DNA of 64,000 nt. Source: Ectothiorhodospira sp. BSL-9 (GTDB lineage: Bacteria; Pseudomonadota; Gammaproteobacteria; Ectothiorhodospirales; Ectothiorhodospiraceae). Both the position numbers and the translations under genes were made by a program. Of the stretch, positions 1 through 8,193 are shown piece after piece; positions within the stretch are counted from its first letter, which is position 1, and every line of letters begins with the position of its first letter. The stretch covers positions 124,001-188,000 of the forward strand of contig NZ_CP011994.1 of assembly GCF_001632845.1 (NCBI RefSeq). The letters are read 5' to 3'. The notes beneath the pieces are model-generated. The model was not told where the DNA came from and did not search any database. It saw only the letters and a list, made by a program, of their open reading frames with translations.

Positions 1-390
1 CAGTCCATTCACCACGCCCAGGTAATTGATCTCCACAATGCGTTTGAACAGGGCGGGATCGAATTCCTCCAGCCCCATGGGCTCGTAGTCCCCCTGATTG
101 AGGATGGCCATATCCACCGGCCCCACATGGGCCTCGATCTCCTCCACCAGCGTCTTCAGCCCGGCATCGTCGGTGACATCTCCGGGGAAGGCCTGGATGC
201 GCCCGGGCCCGGAGGCCTCGGCGGCCAGGGCCTCCAGCTTGTCCCGACTACGGGAGGTGACCGCCACACACCAGCCAGCGGCGGCCAGGCGCAAGGCCAG
301 GGCACGGCCGATGCCGGTACTGGCCCCCACCAGCCACACGACCCCGGCAGTGTTCGCGGCCGCACCCTTTGTCTGCGTCTGCTCTGCCAT
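1..390 (-). CDS. Short-chain dehydrogenase/reductase (SDR), 3' end beyond window
   Basis: The minus strand is open from an ATG at 390 to the window edge, giving the first 130 residues of an NAD(P)-dependent short-chain dehydrogenase. The Rossmann glycine motif (VGASTGIG) lies about 20 residues in, and the INYLG segment typical of the SDR core is at the end of the visible part, so the catalytic Ser-Tyr-Lys region is off the window. The substrate cannot be told. It is divergent from the MerR-type regulator, with an operator-like palindrome between them and a perfect TATAAT on this strand at 435-430. SDR genes of this kind occur in LitR-controlled light-response clusters, which suggests co-regulation with the photolyase block. 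Confidence 0.85.
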   Translation of the reverse strand, partial: MAEQTQTKGAAANTAGVVWLVGASTGIGRALALRLAAAGWCVAVTSRSRDKLEALAAEASGPGRIQAFPGDVTDDAGLKTLVEEIEAHVGPVDMAILNQGDYEPMGLEEFDPALFKRIVEINYLGVVNGL

Positions 391-429
391 GACCTGATAC
401 CCTCCCGCCTCGCTCGAGGCTACACAAAA

Positions 430-450
430 ATTATACAACGGTTGTACAAT
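430..450. promoter_or_regulatory. Operator-like inverted repeat between SDR and MerR/LitR-like gene
   Basis: ATTATACAAC (430-439) and GTTGTACAAT (441-450) form an inverted repeat with 9 of 10 positions paired around a single base. Read as half sites it is TATACA-N5-TGTACA, an 11-bp register. It overlaps a perfect -10 (TATAAT) for the leftward SDR gene and a -10-like TACAAT (445-450) for the rightward regulator, so a protein bound here would affect both promoters. The same half sites recur at 3685-3722. Binding by the adjacent regulator is inferred. Confidence 0.65.
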
Positions 451-456
451 CACGAC

Positions 457-1407
457 ATGACGCCGACACCCCCAGCCAAGGTCTCGCCGCCCGGGACTGA
501 CGGGCTGTTCCCCATCCGCACGGTCACTTCCATGACCGGAGTGCACCCGGTCACCCTGCGTGCCTGGGAACGGCGTCACGGGCTGATCCGTCCGCAACGC
601 ACACCCAAGGGACATCGACTCTACAGCACCGGGGACATTGATCGCATCCGCCAGGTGCTCGAACTGCTGGATCAGGGCATTTCCATCGGCCAGGTGGGTA
701 AGCTGCTGGACGCCCCCGACCCGCCAACGCCCACGCAGGGCACCCCGGACCATGGCCCCTCCTGCGCCTGGGCCGACTACCGGGCAAGGCTGTCGGCTGC
801 GGCCCTGCAGTTTGACAGCCAGGCCCTGGAACGGGTTTACGCCGACGCCATGTCGATCTTCCCGGTGCAACAGGTCATTCCCCAGTTGCTCTGGCCCGCG
901 CATACGGCGCTGCGTGATCAGGCCGGGAACACGCCCCTGTCAGCCGCTGCCCAGGCCTTCTTCCAGGGCTGGGCCCGCTACACCCTGGCGTCCCGGTTTC
1001 GTCACGAACTGAGTCATGCCCAGGGGCCGCCCCTGGTCCTTGCGCCCTTCCCGGAGCAGGGTGAAACCCTGGACCTGGACATGCTGGCCCTGCTGGCCGC
1101 CACCCAGGGCCTGCAGGTGTTGTGGCTGGCCAGCCCCGTCACCCTGGATACCCTGGAGGCCACCATGAACCAGGTTCCGGCCCGGGGCCTGATCCTGGTG
1201 GGAGAGGACCGCCTGTCCCGAGACATGCTCACCCGGGGCCTGCCGTCCTGGTCGGGCAGGATCAACACCCCGGTGCTGGCCGCCGGCCCCAGCGCCCACC
1301 AACACCGCCGCGCCCTGACCGGGGCTGGCCTGATTCCCCTGGAACGCGACCCCTGGCAGGCCACGCGTCAGCTGGAGGCCCATCTGCGCACGGCTCAAGC
1401 TGATTGA
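457..1407 (+). CDS. litR: MerR-family regulator, class II LitR-like (light-response regulator)
   Basis: A 316-residue regulator with an N-terminal MerR winged helix-turn-helix (about residues 18-85, with FPIRTVTSMTG and LRAWERRHGLI) and a C-terminal region built like the cobalamin-binding module of LitR/CarH proteins. The cobalamin marks seem absent: there is no DxHxxG, and the Trp-x9-Glu-His light-sensing motif is not recognisable. This fits class II LitR proteins, which work with a separate LOV photosensor in Pseudomonas; no LOV gene is in this window. The ATG at 457 has no Shine-Dalgarno, but a TACAAT -10 ends seven bases before it, so the mRNA may be leaderless. The stop overlaps the convergent phrB stop by 13 bp. 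Family assignment is good; the light role rests on neighbours. Confidence 0.75.
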   Translation: MTPTPPAKVSPPGTDGLFPIRTVTSMTGVHPVTLRAWERRHGLIRPQRTPKGHRLYSTGDIDRIRQVLELLDQGISIGQVGKLLDAPDPPTPTQGTPDHGPSCAWADYRARLSAAALQFDSQALERVYADAMSIFPVQQVIPQLLWPAHTALRDQAGNTPLSAAAQAFFQGWARYTLASRFRHELSHAQGPPLVLAPFPEQGETLDLDMLALLAATQGLQVLWLASPVTLDTLEATMNQVPARGLILVGEDRLSRDMLTRGLPSWSGRINTPVLAAGPSAHQHRRALTGAGLIPLERDPWQATRQLEAHLRTAQAD

Positions 1408-2846
1408 CGCAGGATCTCCCAGGCCGCCAGGGCCTCGCGGCGACTGACCGCCAGATCCACGATGGGTCGCGGATAATCTCGTCCAGGTCGGATGCCAGCG
1501 CTGCGCCACACGGAGTCCGGGGTCTGCCAGGGCTTGTGCAGGTACTTGTCCGGCAGGTTCTTGAGTTCCGGCACCCAGCGACGCACGTAGTCACCCTTTG
1601 GGTCAAAGCGCTCCCCCTGGAGCACCGGATTGAACACGCGAAAATAAGGGGCAGCATCTGCCCCGCAGCCGGCCGTCCATTGCCAGCCCAGGGTATTGCT
1701 GGCCAGGTCCGCGTCCACCAGGGTGTCCCAGAACCAGCGGGCGCCTTCGCGCCAGTGGATGAGCAGATTCTTGGTGAGCAGCGAGGCGGTGATCATGCGT
1801 ACCCGGTTGTGCATCCAGCCGGTGGTCCATAACTCGCGCATCCCGGCATCCACGATGGGCAGGCCGGTACGGCCCTGTTGCCAGGCCTGCAGGGCGTCGT
1901 CATCCCGTGGCGGCCAGGGGAAATCCTCGAAACGGGTATCCAGGGGATTCAAGGGCGTGTGGGGAAAGTGAAACAGCAGGTGATGTCCGAACTCGCGCCA
2001 GCCCACCTCACCGAGAAAGGCCTTCACTGAGGCATCCGCCCCCCGGTGCCGCCCCTCCGCCACCGCCCGATGACAGGCGTGAACCACCTGCCGGGGGCTG
2101 ATCTCGCCAAAGTGCAGATGCGGTGAAAGACGGGATGTACCGACCCGATCAGGCAGGTTGCGGGCTTCCCCATAGTCGGCCAGGGCATGAGCCAGGAACC
2201 CCTCCAGGGCCTCGTGAGCCCCCTCCTCCCCCGGCGTCCAGGCCTCGGCCAGTCCCGCATCCCACGGGATGGTGGGCAGCAGCCCCAGACTGCCCAGGGC
2301 CTCGCCACGGCAGTCTTCCGACGCCGACACAAACCGCCCGGGCCGGGGCTGCAGACTGACGTCCAGGGCCCCCTGGGCCTGACAGGCCTTCCAGTAGGGG
2401 GTGAACACCCGGTAGGGGTCGCCGGAGCGGTTTTGCACCGCCCACGGCTCCAGGAGCAGCGCCCCATTGAAACTGCGCGTCTGGACACCCTGCGCCTGCA
2501 GGACCTGCTTGATGCGGGTGTCCCGGCGGATACTGTCGGGCTCGTAGAGCCGATTCCAGTGCACATGCGACGCGCCGGTCTCGCGGATCAGATCCTGGAG
2601 GGTTTCCAGGCTGGGGCCGCTGCGAATCACCAGGGGGGCCCCCAGTTCGGCCAGATCCTGGCCCAGTTGAGCCAGGCTGTGATGTAACCACCAGCGCGAC
2701 GCCGCGCCCGGCGTCCAGTCCCCCTCCTCCTCCGGGGCATGGATATAGACCGGCACGATGCGCTCGGCCTGCTCCAGGGCCGCCATGAGGGCGGGGTTAT
2801 CCGCCAGGCGCAGATCCCGCCTGAACCAGATCAGTGCAGTGGTCAT
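1395..2846 (-). CDS. phrB: Deoxyribodipyrimidine photolyase
   Basis: A 483-residue flavoprotein that splits UV-induced cyclobutane pyrimidine dimers using blue light. It has the N-terminal antenna domain (opening TTALIWFRRDLRL) and the C-terminal FAD domain, with the conserved TSRLSPHLHFGEIS segment near residue 237 and VDAGMREL near 332. Length matches class I CPD photolyases. The start is the ATG at 2846 because AAGGAG lies eight bases upstream; a GTG nine bases earlier sits directly on that site. It lies 48 bp downstream of folE on the same strand and is probably co-transcribed with it. FolE makes the first committed pterin intermediate, and a folate antenna is used by many class I photolyases, so the pairing makes biochemical sense. 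Confidence 0.95.
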   Translation of the reverse strand: MTTALIWFRRDLRLADNPALMAALEQAERIVPVYIHAPEEEGDWTPGAASRWWLHHSLAQLGQDLAELGAPLVIRSGPSLETLQDLIRETGASHVHWNRLYEPDSIRRDTRIKQVLQAQGVQTRSFNGALLLEPWAVQNRSGDPYRVFTPYWKACQAQGALDVSLQPRPGRFVSASEDCRGEALGSLGLLPTIPWDAGLAEAWTPGEEGAHEALEGFLAHALADYGEARNLPDRVGTSRLSPHLHFGEISPRQVVHACHRAVAEGRHRGADASVKAFLGEVGWREFGHHLLFHFPHTPLNPLDTRFEDFPWPPRDDDALQAWQQGRTGLPIVDAGMRELWTTGWMHNRVRMITASLLTKNLLIHWREGARWFWDTLVDADLASNTLGWQWTAGCGADAAPYFRVFNPVLQGERFDPKGDYVRRWVPELKNLPDKYLHKPWQTPDSVWRSAGIRPGRDYPRPIVDLAVSRREALAAWEILRQSA

Positions 2847-2894
2847 GCCCGTCACTCCTTGTGGCCGAATACCCGAGACAAACCCAAAGCCTCC

Positions 2895-3518
2895 TCAATG
2901 GCTGCGGCGAATCAGTTCCAGGAACTCCGAGCGGGTGCGGGCATCATCACGGAAGTTACCCAGCATCACCGAGGTGAGCATGGCAGAATTCTGCTTTTCC
3001 ACCCCACGCATCATCATGCACATGTGCCTGGCCTCGGCCACCACCCCCACGCCCCGCGCGCCGGTGACGTCCATCACTGCCTGGGCGATCTCCCGGGTCA
3101 GGCTCTCCTGAATCTGCAGGCGCCGGGCGAACATGTCCACGATGCGGGCGATCTTTGACAGGCCGATCACCTTGCCATCGGGGATATAGGCCACATGGCA
3201 CTTGCCGATGATCGGCAATAAATGATGCTCGCAGAGCGAATACAGTTCGATGTCCTTGACCAGCACCATTTCATCGCTGTCGGAGGCGAACAGCGCCCCG
3301 TTCACCAACTCCTCAAGGGACTGATGATAGCCACTGGTAAGGTACTGCATGGCCTTGGCGGCCCTGAGCGGCGTGCCCTGAAGCCCCTCGCGACCGGGGT
3401 CCTCCCCCAGCCCTTCGAGCATCAGGCGATAGTGTTCGGCAAGCTCATCAGCCGACATGGGCGCATGAGCCTCCACCGGCTCCTTGCCCCCGGCAATCTT
3501 CGTGACCGTCTTTGTCAT
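2895..3518 (-). CDS. folE: GTP cyclohydrolase I (FolE)
   Basis: A 207-residue enzyme converting GTP to 7,8-dihydroneopterin triphosphate, the first step of tetrahydrofolate synthesis. The zinc-binding residues are visible as Cys96 and His99 in LCEHHLLP and Cys167 in [10 protein letters not shown], so this is the zinc-type IA enzyme. A GGAG lies ten bases before the ATG. It heads a leftward folE-phrB unit whose promoter must lie in the 233-bp region shared with the divergent FAD oxidoreductase operon, which carries TGTACA sites. folE copies inside photolyase/LitR clusters are often a second, inducible paralogue; whether the genome has another copy is not visible here. Confidence 0.96.
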
Positions 3519-3684
3519 GGCCTTTTCTCCGTGCAGGTGACAGCATGTATGTTGGACCGCTCCATCCTCTCATGACCGCGGCGGCGCGCAACGCTTTCCG
3601 GCCGCGCTCTTGTCCCGGGTCTTGCCACCATCGTATGGTCACGATCATGGGCAGCCGCTTGAAAAGCAGCGCTCCTAAAAACCT

Positions 3685-3722
3685 TGTACAATAAAAATCA
3701 AAGCTTGTACAGTTAATGTATA
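3685..3722. promoter_or_regulatory. TGTACA-type operator array between folE and the FAD oxidoreductase operon
   Basis: Three half sites occur: TGTACA at 3685-3690, TGTACA at 3706-3711 and TGTATA at 3717-3722. Their starts are 21 and 11 bp apart, so they fall close to the same DNA face; the last pair (N5 spacing) repeats the architecture at 432-448. A possible leftward folE promoter, TTAACT (3717-3712) and TATTGT (3694-3689) with a 17-bp spacer, lies inside the array. A TATAAG at 3719-3724 may serve the rightward operon. LitR/CarH-type proteins bind TGTACA-like repeats, which makes the regulator at 457-1407 the likely binder. Confidence 0.6.
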
Positions 3723-3751
3723 AGTATCCTTTTCAGGACTAGGGGAATCAC

Positions 3752-5095
3752 ATGGCTCGCGAACGCATCGCCGTCATCGGCGCAGGGATCTCGGGACTGG
3801 CCAGCGCCTGGCTGCTGTCACGACAATACGATGTGACAGTGTTCGAGAAGAATGATTACATCGGCGGCCACACCAATACCGTCGATGTGCCCGGAGACCA
3901 GGGCCCTCGCGGGGTGGATACCGGGTTCATGGTCTTCAATCACCGCAACTACCCCCACCTCAAGGCCCTGTTCGCCCATCTGGGCATTGAGTCACAGCCT
4001 ACGGACATGTCCTTCTCGGCCTCCGTGGGCGGGGGTCGACTGGAGTACGCGGGTTCGGACCTGAATACCCTGTTTGCCCAGCGACGCAATCTGTTCAACC
4101 CCCGATTCCTGCGCATGCTGCGGGATATCATCAGGTTCAACCGCACCGGCAAGGCCCTGCTCCAGAGCGGCGACGTGCCCCAGGTGACGCTGGGCGGGTA
4201 CCTGATTCAGGAGCGTTATGGTCCGGGGTTTCGCGATGATTACCTGCTACCCATGGCAGCTGCCATCTGGTCCTGCCCCACCCATCGCATGCTGGATTTC
4301 CCGCTGGAATCCTTCCTCAACTTCTTCTCCAACCATGGGTTGCTGGACCTGGCCGACCGCCCCCAGTGGCACACGGTCAAGGGTGGCAGCCGAGAGTACG
4401 TCCGGCAGATGCTCAAGGCCCTGCCCGACGGAGTGCATGCGAATCGTCGGGTCGTGGCGGTCCAGCGCCAGGAGGGGCAGATTCGGGTGATCACCGATGA
4501 CCAGGGAGAACACCTGTTTGACCAGGTGGTGTTCGGCTGCCACGCCGATGAGGTGCTGGGCATGCTGGAGGACCCCACCGAGGCCGAATCCCGGATTTTG
4601 CAGTGCTTCACCTACCAGCCCAACCGCACCCTGCTCCATACCGACGTGCGCCTGATGCCGCGCATGAAGCGGGTTTGGTCATCATGGAACTACATGGCCC
4701 GACAGCGTTCCGCCGATGCCCCGGCCAATGCCGTGTCGGTCACCTATTGGATGAACCGGCTGCAGGCCCTGGATGAATCCAAGGACTACCTGGTGAGCCT
4801 CAACCCGCTGATCGAGCCGCGGGAGGAGACCATCATTCGCGAGATCCGCTACCATCATCCAGTGTTCGACCAGCGCGCCATGGAGGCCCAGAAGCAGCTC
4901 CCCGAGTTGCAGGGTGCCGACCGCATCTGGTTCTGTGGCGCATGGACGGGATACGGCTTCCACGAGGACGGCCTGCGCTCGGCCATTCAGGTGGCCGGAC
5001 GCCTGGGTGTCTCACCGCCCTGGAGCATCCCCCGCGAGGCCACCGGAGACGAGGCGGCGCAGCCGGCCGGCGCGGTCGGGACGGAGGCGTCATGA
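3752..5095 (+). CDS. FAD-dependent oxidoreductase (flavin amine oxidase-like)
   Basis: A 447-residue flavoprotein with an N-terminal dinucleotide-binding glycine motif (GAGISG, residues 10-15) and the following acidic strand end (VFEKNDYIGGHTNT), as in the amine oxidase/phytoene desaturase superfamily. The C-terminal FAD-contacting segment (WFCGAWTGYGFHEDGLRSA) is present. The substrate is unknown. It heads an operon with DUF1365, a Cfa-like methyltransferase and DUF3833, joined by one- and four-base overlaps. That association recurs in many bacteria and suggests oxidation or desaturation of a membrane fatty acid before or after methylation. GGGG lies seven bases before the ATG. A polyene or carotenoid substrate is possible, but fatty acid is favoured by the neighbours. 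Confidence 0.88.
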   Translation: MARERIAVIGAGISGLASAWLLSRQYDVTVFEKNDYIGGHTNTVDVPGDQGPRGVDTGFMVFNHRNYPHLKALFAHLGIESQPTDMSFSASVGGGRLEYAGSDLNTLFAQRRNLFNPRFLRMLRDIIRFNRTGKALLQSGDVPQVTLGGYLIQERYGPGFRDDYLLPMAAAIWSCPTHRMLDFPLESFLNFFSNHGLLDLADRPQWHTVKGGSREYVRQMLKALPDGVHANRRVVAVQRQEGQIRVITDDQGEHLFDQVVFGCHADEVLGMLEDPTEAESRILQCFTYQPNRTLLHTDVRLMPRMKRVWSSWNYMARQRSADAPANAVSVTYWMNRLQALDESKDYLVSLNPLIEPREETIIREIRYHHPVFDQRAMEAQKQLPELQGADRIWFCGAWTGYGFHEDGLRSAIQVAGRLGVSPPWSIPREATGDEAAQPAGAVGTEAS

Positions 5096-5901
5096 GCGCT
5101 CCCGAAGGACACCCCGGAGCCCCCATGGGCCTGGCGGACATGGAGGATGGACGCCTCTACCGCACCCGGGTCATGCACCGGCGGCTGTTTCCCGTGGATT
5201 ACCGCTTCATCTACCGGGTCTTCAGCCTGGTGGTGGACGTGGACCGGCTGGATGCCCTGGACCGGCGACTCCGGCTGTTGTCAGTGAACCGCTTCAACCT
5301 CCTGAGCCTTGATGATCGCGACCACGGCGCCCGTGATGGCACCCCACTGCGCCCCTGGGCGGAGACGCAACTGGCCCAGGCGGGCGTGGACCTGGACGGT
5401 GGTCGCATCTTCCTGCTGGCCTTCCCGCGGGTGCTGGGCTACGTCTTCAATCCCCTGAGCCTTTTCTACTGCCTGCACCGGGACGGTAGCCTGCGGGCCA
5501 TCATCTGTGAAGTGAGCAATACCCTGGGGGATTGCCATCACTATGTCCTCCACAACCAGGATCAACCCATGGACTGGCCGGTGCGTGCCAGTCAGGACAA
5601 GCTCTTCTACGTCTCTCCCTTCATCGAGATGGATGCACGCTATCAGTTCCGGCTGTCGGAACCGGGACAGGGTCTGAGTGTTCTCATCCATGAATACCAG
5701 CAGTCGAAACTCATGCTGGCCGCCAGCCAGACCGGTCATGTGCGTCCGCTCACCGACCATGAGCTTCTCAAGGCCGTGGCCACCATGCCCCTGATGACCT
5801 TCAAGGTGATCTTCGGCATTCACTGGCAGGCCCTGAAGATCTGGTGGAAAGGCGGCAAGTACTACAGCAAGCCCAGCTCATCCTCAGAGGAGATGAACTG
5901 A
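5092..5901 (+). CDS. DUF1365 family protein
   Basis: A 269-residue protein matching the DUF1365 family: an N-terminal RLYRTRVMHRRLFPVDYRF segment, the FPRVLGYVFNPLSLFYC core near residues 110-125 and CEVSNTLGDCHHYVL following. Its biochemical function is not established. The start at 5092 overlaps the upstream stop in an ATGA, which implies translational coupling; a longer in-frame ORF from 4942 would overlap the previous gene by about 150 bp and is rejected. The stop shares one base with the next ATG. DUF1365 genes nearly always sit beside a flavin oxidoreductase and a Cfa-like methyltransferase, so a part in modifying membrane lipids is the reasonable inference. Confidence 0.88.
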   Translation: MSAPEGHPGAPMGLADMEDGRLYRTRVMHRRLFPVDYRFIYRVFSLVVDVDRLDALDRRLRLLSVNRFNLLSLDDRDHGARDGTPLRPWAETQLAQAGVDLDGGRIFLLAFPRVLGYVFNPLSLFYCLHRDGSLRAIICEVSNTLGDCHHYVLHNQDQPMDWPVRASQDKLFYVSPFIEMDARYQFRLSEPGQGLSVLIHEYQQSKLMLAASQTGHVRPLTDHELLKAVATMPLMTFKVIFGIHWQALKIWWKGGKYYSKPSSSSEEMN

Positions 5902-7130
5902 TGTCCCTGGAACAGACACCCACCCAGCCCCGTACCCTGGGCGCCCGCACCGGTGGCTTTGCCATGCGTTTCCTGCTGCGGCGGCTACGGGGCCTGCACT
6001 CGGGAGAGTTGCTGGTGATCGGCCCCGATGGCAGCGAACATCGGGTGCAAGGCACGCACCCCGGTGGCCGTGGCACCATCCGGATCCACCGCCCCGGCGT
6101 CCTGCTGCGGCGCCTGCTGTCCCGGGGCCTGGTGGGCCTGGGAGAGGGCTATATGGTGGGGGACTGGGACACGCCGGATCTGCAGGCCCTGCTGACCATG
6201 GGCTCGGTGAATCAGGAATACATCCGCAGCCTGGTCTACAGCGCCTTCTGGTCCCGGGTGGCCGATTTCCTTCGCCACCAGTTCCGTGCCAACAGCCGCG
6301 ATGGCAGCCGCCGCAATATCTCGTTCCACTACGACCTGGGCAACGACTTCTACCGCCTCTGGCTGGACAAGACCATGACCTACTCCTGCGCCCTGCTGGA
6401 GCAGGAGGATGAACCCCTGGAGGCGGCCCAGCAACGCAAATACGCCCGTCTGCTGGAACATCTGGACGCGGCCCCCGGTTCACACATCCTGGAAATCGGC
6501 TGTGGCTGGGGCGGCTTTGCCGAATACGCCGCCCGCCAGGGCCACCGGGTGACCGGTGTCACCCTCTCCCGGGAGCAGCTGGACTATGCCCAGGCACGCC
6601 TGGAGGCGGCGGGCCTGGCCGACCGCGTGGATCTGCGCCTGCAGGACTACCGGGACGTGAACGAACAGTTTGACCATGTGGTGTCCATCGAGATGTTCGA
6701 GGCGGTGGGCGAACGCTGGTGGCCCACCTGGTTCGAGACGGTGCGCAAGAGCCTCAAGCCCGGAGGCCGCGCCGCCGTGCAGGTGATCACCATCGACGAA
6801 GGCGCCTTCGGCTATTACCGCCGGGCCGCAGATTTCATTCAGCTGTATATCTTCCCCGGCGGCATGCTGCCCACGGTGGATATCTTCAGCGAATGCGCGG
6901 ACAAGGCCGGGCTGACCCTTCGTCACAGCGAATTTCATGGAGAGCATTATGCCCGCACCCTGGACCGCTGGTACCAGCGGGTGCAGGAACAATCCAGCGC
7001 GATTCTCTCCCTGGGCTCCTATGACGAGCGCTTTTTGCGCACCTGGGAGTTCTACCTGGCCTATTGCGAGGCGGGCTTCCGCTCCCGCAACACGGATCTG
7101 ATGCACGCCGTGCTGGAAGCGCCCGCCTGA
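5901..7130 (+). CDS. cfa: Cyclopropane-fatty-acid synthase family methyltransferase
   Basis: A 409-residue SAM-dependent methyltransferase of the CFA synthase family, which modifies double bonds of phospholipid acyl chains at the membrane surface. The domain opens with FHYDLGNDFYRLWLD; the SAM motif LEIGCGWGGFAEYAA is near residue 196 and SIEMFEAVGERWW near 262. The start at 5901 shares its A with the previous stop. The product could be a cyclopropane fatty acid or, given the neighbouring FAD oxidoreductase, a methylated fatty acid further processed as in the alphaproteobacterial furan-fatty-acid route; the sequence does not decide. The photooxidative context agrees with a role in membrane protection. 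Confidence 0.9.
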   Translation: MSLEQTPTQPRTLGARTGGFAMRFLLRRLRGLHSGELLVIGPDGSEHRVQGTHPGGRGTIRIHRPGVLLRRLLSRGLVGLGEGYMVGDWDTPDLQALLTMGSVNQEYIRSLVYSAFWSRVADFLRHQFRANSRDGSRRNISFHYDLGNDFYRLWLDKTMTYSCALLEQEDEPLEAAQQRKYARLLEHLDAAPGSHILEIGCGWGGFAEYAARQGHRVTGVTLSREQLDYAQARLEAAGLADRVDLRLQDYRDVNEQFDHVVSIEMFEAVGERWWPTWFETVRKSLKPGGRAAVQVITIDEGAFGYYRRAADFIQLYIFPGGMLPTVDIFSECADKAGLTLRHSEFHGEHYARTLDRWYQRVQEQSSAILSLGSYDERFLRTWEFYLAYCEAGFRSRNTDLMHAVLEAPA

Positions 7131-7162
7131 TGATTCAGTCGCCGTCACCCTGGAGGTGAGCC

Positions 7163-7645
7163 ATGAAGATCGAGGCATTCAAAGACCGCAAGCCCACCCT
7201 TGACCTGGAGGCCTATTTCGATGGTCAGGTGAAGGCCTGGGGCCTGTTTCAGGATCGTTTTGGCACGGTGCACCGCCAGTTCACCGTGGACATCCTGGGG
7301 CATGTGGAGGGAGATGAGCTGGTGCTGGAGGAGGATTTCATCTACGACGATGGCGAGAAGGATCGACGCGTCTGGCGCCTCAAGCGCCTGGATGCACAGC
7401 ACTACGAGGGTCGTGCCGACGACGTGGAGGGGGCAGCCAAAGGCAAGCTCTGCGGACAGGCCTTCAATTTCACCTATGTCCTGCGCCTGCCCATCAGCGG
7501 CCGCATCTGGCGGGTCAATTTCGACGACTGGATGTTCATGCACGAGGACGGCGTGCTGGTAAACCGGGCGGTGATGAGCAAGTTCGGTATCCGCCTGGGC
7601 GAAGTGACCCTGTTCTTCCGGCGAGCTGGTGACAGCACTGCGTGA
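7163..7645 (+). CDS. DUF3833 family protein
   Basis: A 160-residue protein assigned to DUF3833 on its FKDRKPTLDLEAYFDG opening, repeated tryptophans, and RVNFDDWMFMHEDGVLVNRAVMSKFGI near the C-terminus. Function is unknown. Many family members are lipoproteins, but this one starts directly in the domain without a signal peptide or lipobox and is probably cytoplasmic. GGAG lies eight bases before the ATG. It follows the Cfa-like gene by 32 bp and is the last gene of the operon. A lipocalin-like beta fold would suit the pattern and could bind a modified lipid, but that is speculation. Confidence 0.82.
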   Translation: MKIEAFKDRKPTLDLEAYFDGQVKAWGLFQDRFGTVHRQFTVDILGHVEGDELVLEEDFIYDDGEKDRRVWRLKRLDAQHYEGRADDVEGAAKGKLCGQAFNFTYVLRLPISGRIWRVNFDDWMFMHEDGVLVNRAVMSKFGIRLGEVTLFFRRAGDSTA

Positions 7646-7674
7646 TGAATCCCTCCCAACGGGGCCGCCACCGG

Positions 7675-7762
7675 GGGAATGATTTTCCCACCAAGACTAG
7701 CCCTCGGGCGCCGTTTATTGGATACTTACCAGAATAAAGATAAGGCCATCGGGAATGATTTT
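7675..7762. repeat. Direct repeat of a 12-bp motif upstream of the HiPIP gene
   Basis: GGGAATGATTTT occurs at 7675-7686 and again at 7751-7762, 76 bp apart, in the 245-bp region between the DUF3833 and HiPIP genes. Between them is an A/T-rich stretch with TTTATT and AATAAA. No convincing -35/-10 pair was identified. The repeat may be a regulatory site, but nothing in the window confirms this. Confidence 0.5.
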
Positions 7763-7890
7763 TATCAGTGACCGAAGGCTGACAGCAAGACGGGCCCAGC
7801 CCGCTTAATCGGGATCACCGGATGATCAGGGCAGAGAACCCCGCGCCGGCCCCCGTTGATATCATCGCGAGACGCTAGGAGTATAAGAGA

Positions 7891-8193
7891 ATGAAAAAGC
7901 AAGACCTTAGCCGTAGAAGCTTCCTGAAGTTCGGTGTCGCCGGCCTGGTGGCCGTGCCCGTGGCCGGCCTGGGCTGGACCACCACCGCCGCTGCCGCCGA
8001 GCGCCTGGATCCCGAATCCGCCGAGGCCCAGGCCCTGCAGTACGTGCACAAGTCCGAAGTTGACGACCAGAACTGCCTCAACTGCCTGCTGTACAACGAT
8101 CCCAGCCAGGAAGAGTGGGGCCCCTGTGCCGTATTCCCCGGCAAGGTCGTGGCCGCTGAAGGCTGGTGCACCGCCTGGGTTGCCCGCGGCTGA
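7891..8193 (+). CDS. hip: High-potential iron-sulfur protein (HiPIP), Tat-exported
   Basis: A 100-residue precursor of a small periplasmic [4Fe-4S] electron carrier that in purple bacteria re-reduces the photosynthetic reaction centre. The twin-arginine signal is textbook (SRRSFLK at residues 7-13, then a hydrophobic stretch) with likely cleavage near residue 36. The four cluster cysteines are 62, 65, 79 and 93, spaced C-x2-C-x13-C-x13-C, with GWC at the last one as in the family. AGGAG is nine bases before the ATG. It stands alone, followed by a strong terminator. Its presence is one of the best indications of a phototrophic or halophilic purple sulfur lineage; Ectothiorhodospira species often carry more than one HiPIP. 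Confidence 0.95.
   Translation: MKKQDLSRRSFLKFGVAGLVAVPVAGLGWTTTAAAAERLDPESAEAQALQYVHKSEVDDQNCLNCLLYNDPSQEEWGPCAVFPGKVVAAEGWCTAWVARG

Follow-up and report, generated by a model that had tools for sequence, protein, structure and literature searches.

The locus considered here raises the question of whether a gene cluster at the left end of a stretch of DNA from Ectothiorhodospira sp. BSL-9 is governed by one LitR-type regulator and, if so, what such a regulon would do in an organism that lives by light. The window, by which we mean the whole stretch of 64,000 nucleotides that was analysed, corresponds to G000:C1:124001-188000, where G000 is the host genome with one contig of 3,550,080 bases; positions without a prefix are those of the window. 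A first-pass annotation had named eight genes in this cluster and had described a light regulon in a probable phototroph. All eight identities were confirmed by family matches above the Pfam cut-offs, at about the coordinates it had given, and phototrophy was borne out by two PF00124 reaction-centre genes in G000 (L and M subunits, E 2.5e-109 and 1.4e-99). Our preferred reading, which we regard as probable, is a photoprotection cluster that would be repressed by LitR, released by light or photo-oxidation and directed mainly to furan lipids.

The earlier idea of a single regulator agrees with the presence of one shared operator, TGTAYA-N5-TGTAYA, in both divergent control regions of the cluster (391-456 and 3519-3751). 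Operator 1, a LitR-type TGTACA-N5-TGTATA with an 11-bp repeat, was found by a genome pattern scan on the minus strand between the SDR and LitR genes (432-448). Operator 2, also of LitR type, was found by the pattern scan on the plus strand as TGTACA-N15-TGTACA-N5-TGTATA (3685-3722, with the N5 part at 3706-3722) and its half-sites are 21 and 11 bp apart. Because the third half-site is placed 21 bp upstream (3685) and the other step is 11 bp, the three half-sites would face approximately the same side of the helix. Exactly two TGTAYA-N5-TGTAYA matches occur in the 3,550,080 bases, one per control region, where 0.23 matches are predicted from composition at the G+C of the window; reversed-pattern controls gave 0 and 0 in G000, and 100 shuffled windows gave none. 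A related pattern, TTGTACA-N{6,30}-TTGTAC, has one genome match, at operator 2, and its control also has one.

Both operators overlap putative -10-like hexamers read from the sequence. In the SDR unit, TATAAT (430-435, minus strand) overlaps operator 1, and in the ufa unit, TATAAG (3719-3724, plus strand) overlaps the last half-site of operator 2. The litR start codon comes 6 nt after the end of TACAAT, the sequence assigned to the litR promoter, and this promoter is the only one picked up by the consensus promoter scan. The Pseudomonas operator T(G/A)TACA-N12-TGTA(C/T)A (PMC9758184; the cited papers are represented throughout by excerpts) is absent at the cluster. The single N12 site of the genome, at G000:C1:2938544, was not accepted as a regulon member, as it was seen by eye to have further TATA-type repeats around it, before open reading frames (ORFs).

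The operators were observed to be conserved. N5 sites occur at both control regions in all ten genomes of the order whose LitR-ufa cluster was examined (G000, G001 or E. haloalkaliphila at L023, G004 or E. marina at L031, G002, G005, G006, G008, G009, G043 and G044). When 20 loci were scanned with N3 to N7 allowed, all 21 matches were N5; no site was found in this range at L108 (G023), which has a LitR match and a solitary TTGTACA close to the start of LitR, or at L103 (G045), where the LitR match is weak. The spacer letters vary between genomes while the half-sites are almost invariant, being identical in G000, E. haloalkaliphila and E. marina. Across the order, which has 39 LitR matches, 25 of the 30 LitR loci examined carry an N5 site, the exceptions being L050, L051, L052, L054 and L060. 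A comparison of the neighbourhood, as proposed by the first-pass annotation, showed an identical gene set and order in E. haloalkaliphila and E. marina, which indicates more than chance.

A phototrophic congener, G003, gave no match to LitR at a threshold of E 1e-20. It keeps SDR, SnoaL, phr, folE, ufaD, ufaO, ufaM, DUF3833 and HiPIP in unchanged order, and no N5 site is left at its cluster. At its ufa promoter TATAAG is kept while the two proximal half-sites are now TGCATA and GGTATA, and in its SDR/phr region the half-site spacing is lost. This pattern is what the loss of a cognate repressor should leave, and LitR very probably controls this cluster. The same genome also lends something to the opposite view, in which the cluster is expressed constitutively or under another regulator, LitR acts elsewhere and the cluster is an inherited gene order: G003 retains the cluster without LitR, and folE is single-copy in G000, as its only PF01227 match. 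We consider this view improbable since in G000 the exact operator occurs only at this cluster and the operator was lost where LitR is missing. Control by ChrR was rejected as well, with no TIGR02451 match in G000 (of 14 control genomes, this profile matched in Caulobacter only). Two other phototrophs of the order, G007 and G046, have reaction-centre genes with neither a PF01227 folE nor a LitR match; the G007 genome is about 2.0 Mb.

The rightward unit that begins behind operator 2 comprises a FAD oxidoreductase (3752-5095), a DUF1365 protein (5092-5901, family match E 1e-81), a Cfa-like S-adenosylmethionine (SAM) methyltransferase (5901-7130) and, as the last gene, a DUF3833 protein (7163-7645), all on the plus strand and identified by family match. 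Based on domains, gene order and context, the first three are probably UfaD, UfaO and UfaM of the furan-fatty-acid pathway. Genes of all three types stand together here, and the membrane-lipid modification proposed earlier is retained and sharpened into probable furan fatty acid synthesis. In this pathway UfaM is a SAM-dependent fatty acyl methylase acting on vaccenate chains of phospholipids, UfaD is kin to phytoene dehydrogenases and desaturases and desaturates the UfaM product, and UfaO, a DUF1365 protein, forms the furan using oxygen from O2; the furan lipid is lost upon singlet oxygen exposure (PMC7380195). The corresponding genes of Rhodopseudomonas palustris are RPA2571 (ufaD), RPA2570 (ufaO) and RPA2569 (ufaM), a numbering which suggests a common D-O-M order with the window (PMC7380195). 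Compared with the pathway described there, the window adds DUF3833 downstream and a LitR-type operator upstream. A DUF3833 gene also terminates the stretch examined in the Salinivibrio cluster.

The regulator is a LitR/CarH-like MerR-type protein of 316 residues (457-1407, plus strand) and is the one LitR match in G000. Its MerR domain matches PF13411 with 56.4 bits against a cut-off of 21.6, and its best PDB matches are CarH. This similarity, together with a score of 74 bits against the NCBIfam CarH profile (cut-off 400), might be taken to indicate a class I mechanism where light is sensed via adenosyl-B12. In an alignment with Thermus thermophilus CarH, however, the Trp, the Glu-His pair and the His of CarH, which we take to be B12 contacts, are all replaced in the window LitR. 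PF02310 (B12-binding) was not listed by Pfam at E up to 10, and PF02607 (four-helix B12-binding_2) reached a sub-threshold 13.2 bits (E 0.1, cut-off 23). We rejected the class I mechanism on the replaced residues and regard it as extremely improbable. The protein agrees with what PMC9758184 describes for class II LitR. Sequence identity of LitR is 94% to E. haloalkaliphila and 82% to E. marina, as would suit a host within or very near Ectothiorhodospira, and the ratio of nonsynonymous to synonymous substitution (dN/dS) of 0.19 against E. marina points to purifying selection. Because LitR is under purifying selection and the half-sites are unchanged, the repressor seems to be in use. Outside the order, a LitR relative in L029 (1151-2029) was observed to keep CarH-like W, E-H and H, with an N5 site just upstream (1100-1116), hinting that the 11-bp spacing may be common to B12-type LitRs.

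How a signal would reach LitR depends on the LOV proteins found. Two short LOV families were assigned by score, LOV-A (E up to 1e-70, 16 genomes) and LOV-B (about 1e-57 to 1e-61, 36 genomes), from a match listing that extends to weaker matches than these ranges; of the 52 labels, 32 (16 of each family) were checked in a tree and the other 20, all LOV-B, were assigned by score alone. With a profile containing a LOV-B row, LOV-B-range matches were found in 36 of the 47 genomes of the order. The LOV-B representative L084 scores 176-198 bits to the top twelve 'Sensory box protein' PDB chains, which are presumably Pseudomonas PpSB-type LOVs, whereas LOV-A of G000 scores 113-120 bits to such chains (best 119.8). 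In a tree of 40 rows the two families separate with 100/100 support and the 'Sensory box protein' chains group with LOV-B, with a caution for long branches. LOV-B adjoins LitR in L032. Over the 47 genomes, where weak LitR matches (G028 and G045) were counted as LitR-negative and p-values ignore shared descent, LOV-B tracks LitR (32 both, 5 LitR only, 4 LOV-B only, 6 neither; p 0.006) and LOV-A does not (12 both, 25 LitR only, 4 LOV-A only, 6 neither; p 0.72).

G000 itself has LOV-A (G000:C1:3071514-3071969), a 152-residue short LOV with an NCRFLQ cysteine motif and no effector domain. These features would suit an unchanged Pseudomonas mechanism, where blue light makes LOV-A bind LitR and so relieves repression, and when both short LOV families are lumped, 35 of 47 genomes have both LitR and a short LOV (Fisher p 0.003). 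Splitting the lumped LOVs into LOV-A and LOV-B reverses this suggestion for the present clade, as by score and tree LOV-A stands outside the PpSB family and it does not follow LitR. LOV-A is also kept in G003, which is without LitR, its loci show no N5 site (0 of 16), and G005 and G006 have LitR while neither short LOV was found in them. An SRPBCC-type gene accompanies LOV-A at 15 of 16 loci, the sixteenth (L070) being cut at a contig edge, and this pair may form a separate light pathway. We therefore view the unchanged mechanism as rather unlikely. At L020:2687-4972 (in G000:C1:3067001-3077000), LOV-A was observed downstream of the SRPBCC-type gene, and in this clade it is preceded by an amine-oxidase-like FAD gene too.

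As the search of G000 yielded no PpSB-type LOV, LitR probably receives its signal in some other way. A LOV domain within a longer ORF occurs in G000, G001, G004, G005 and G006 (open frame 378 to 840 residues), and that of G000 reads by eye as a histidine kinase. The gene of this type at L120:1455-3106 (in G000:C1:2829001-2833500) has a frame change near its end in G000, which may be a true break or a sequencing error, and is open over 551 residues in E. haloalkaliphila and E. marina. The earlier description of the locus as a LitR-controlled light regulon holds for the LitR-type regulator and the overlapping targets; the PpSB-type partner was not found, and light is likely to be the cue for LitR by inference from the sequence. 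LitR could instead answer to a non-light cue such as redox, flavin or lipid oxidation state, which would make this a stress rather than a light regulon. The retention of LitR and operators without LOV-B in five phototrophs would agree with such a cue, as would the presence of furan fatty acid genes in the core singlet-oxygen sigmaE-ChrR regulon (PMC6852236), but no named ligand is indicated by the sequence and the LitRs with stated function in PMC9758184 are light-linked; we find a non-light cue unlikely. A tentative proposal, which may well prove wrong, is that LitR became uncoupled from the PpSB-type LOV in one Ectothiorhodospira branch and was re-wired to another input while the regulon, operators and furan output were kept. 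Candidates for the new input would be a LOV histidine kinase, some other LOV protein, or a cue arising from photosynthesis or from photo-oxidation.

Under the preferred reading of a LitR-repressed photoprotection cluster, LitR, which lacks the B12-contact residues, would bind TGTAYA half-sites spaced by 11 bp and lying over the -10-like hexamers of SDR, litR and ufa. It would repress these three promoters and thereby also hold down its own production. A signal that depends on light or photo-oxidation, arriving through LOV-A, the LOV histidine kinase or a non-LOV cue, would remove LitR and allow the lipids to be made. The main output would be furan fatty acids in membrane phospholipids, formed via UfaM, UfaD and UfaO, with photolyase and pterin synthesis alongside, and the furan lipids would then react with singlet oxygen. 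LitR binding and repression, light as the signal and the lipid products are what we infer here from sequence.

The sister genus g3 offers a view of the operator away from the clustered arrangement. None of its 30 genomes has a reaction-centre match, and its regulon genes are scattered. N5 sites were found at 13 of its 14 LOV-B loci (L079-L090 and L092; the exception is L091), in each case just upstream of a Tll0287-like (PF11845) gene that precedes LOV, and also upstream of the folE-containing unit at both folE loci examined. The N5 site is absent from all 16 LOV-A loci and from all 7 unrelated loci. Without recourse to the window, the g3 sites connect the operator with LitR, with folE and with the LOV anti-repressor. 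As further observations, the Tll0287-like gene of L084 has a CxxCH motif, and in the g3 units with operator and folE, folE is accompanied by a DUF3429-like gene in L094 and by a peroxidase-like gene in L093; in L094 a ufaD-like gene lies on the other side of the operator. The gene names in L093 and L094 were given by eye.

Several observations weigh against the preferred reading and have to be set beside this evidence. With up to one mismatch, TRTACA-N5-TGTAYA was found at 6 places compared with 2 in the control, and a third exact match of this pattern is present at G000:C1:266190; it sits within an ORF that resembles an integron integrase as judged by eye and was rejected as a regulon member. 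No consensus promoter was found in 3500-3770. The half-sites are 11 bp apart (N5) here as compared with 18 bp (N12) in Pseudomonas (PMC9758184). The dN/dS of LitR is the highest among the six cluster genes compared (range 0.07-0.19). In G003 the distal TGTACA at the ufa promoter and a TGTATA at SDR/phr persist, and the joint loss of operator and LitR in this genome is a single event. No LOV-B-range match was found in G000, G001, G004, G005 or G006, all of which have LitR and operators. LOV-B loci outside g3, L112 (G043) and L113 (G009), are without an N5 site, and so is L032, where LitR, folE and LOV-B adjoin and only one element is present.

The position of the photolyase gene adds to these points. 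In all three genomes of the immediate clade (G000, E. haloalkaliphila and E. marina), the phr gene (1395-2846, minus strand; best PDB match 4u63 with 478 bits, 1dnp with 312 bits) follows folE and is read in the opposite direction to litR, whereas phr and litR share a direction in the other LitR loci examined that have phr close by. The folE-phr promoter was found to have no separate operator. As phr is inverted, behind folE and without its own operator, LitR control of phr is not evident; the photolyase gene may have escaped LitR regulation or be driven from the folE promoter. The folE gene (2895-3518, minus strand) encodes GTP cyclohydrolase I and, as the single gene of its family in G000, probably also serves housekeeping. 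The case for folE-phr being controlled through the shared control region is a weaker one, though such control is possible. Of the earlier proposal that repair, pterin supply and lipid modification are coupled under one regulator, the operator in both control regions is upheld and the part concerning phr is weakened.

With respect to layout, the SDR oxidoreductase gene (1-390, minus strand) is cut by the window edge and extends over G000:C1:123599-124390; the protein has 92-97% identity in E. marina and E. haloalkaliphila and its gene is followed, left of the window, by a SnoaL-like gene (G000:C1:123162-123602). The two divergent control regions described earlier were recovered, but the reading directions suggest four units instead of three: SDR-SnoaL leftward, LitR rightward, folE-phr leftward and ufaD-O-M-DUF3833 rightward. 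The HiPIP gene (7891-8193, plus strand, by family match), whose adjacency had been pointed out, is a conserved neighbour that follows the cluster in all nine same-genus genomes whose cluster was examined. Its membership in the regulon was rejected because no TGTACA element was found upstream (7646-7890), and it is probably only a syntenic neighbour.

Outside the order, Thiodiazotropha-type symbionts have most of the gene set in a different order, with no folE in the stretches examined, and the step of the element varies, being 9, 10 and 13 bp in the Thiodiazotropha-type loci, 12 in L030 and 11 in L029. A plasmid search with LitR matched 218 records, 2 of them with at least 80% protein coverage, which among the 40 matches listed was reached by Caballeronia only; a search with the DUF1365 protein matched 96 records. 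In Salinivibrio, two N12 operator-like sites (L117:6957-7030) precede the gene row DUF523/DUF1722-MerR-phrB-NTF2-SDR-FAD-DUF1365-Cfa-like-...-DUF3833. This cluster shares MerR, phrB, NTF2, SDR, FAD, DUF1365, Cfa-like and DUF3833 genes with the present cluster and differs from it in the N12 sites, the single strand for all genes and the DUF523/DUF1722 gene before the MerR gene.

The closest known system is that of the class II LitRs (PmlR/PplR) of Pseudomonas mendocina and P. putida, which work with a short LOV anti-repressor, are MerR-type proteins with no complete B12-binding region and share with the window overlapping targets and TGTACA half-sites over promoter elements (PMC9758184). The light-induced LitR targets of P. 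mendocina are phrB, SDR, FAD oxidoreductase and ufaM at one locus and folE at another, with phrB and ufaM induced 25-33 fold by light (PMC9758184), so that the resemblance to the Pseudomonas light regulon noted in the first-pass annotation is upheld. Unlike in Pseudomonas, a PpSB-type LOV was not found in this clade and phr is inverted behind folE, and, in contrast to P. putida with its three LitRs (PMC9758184), the host is phototrophic and has a single LitR match. The class I CarH of T. thermophilus shares the MerR domain and the proximity of carH to phr with the window and differs in its B12-contact residues, which are replaced here. A further related system is the MerR/ChrR blue-light response of Vibrio cholerae (PMC5241685). 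Among the open-access papers listed in literature searches, none described, by title or abstract start, such a regulon in purple sulfur bacteria. The locus would be a known kind of light regulon in a phototroph, with a changed operator spacing, a displaced photolyase and a canonical sensor that was not found.

The natural variants within Ectothiorhodospira, in which LitR occurs with or without LOV-B or the cluster lacks LitR, make the question of the missing sensor directly testable, and the two operators offer an immediate prediction for studies of binding and expression. The sigmaE-ChrR regulon of Rhodobacter sphaeroides shares the furan fatty acid output in a purple phototroph (PMC6852236, PMC7380195) and, according to a title cited in PMC6852236, also includes the photolyase gene phrA, while the regulator in the window is unrelated and ChrR has no match in G000. 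Furan lipid output is governed by a damage sensor in Rhodobacter and would in purple sulfur bacteria be governed by a repressor of the LitR type, a clean comparison between reacting to damage and anticipating it in phototrophic organisms.

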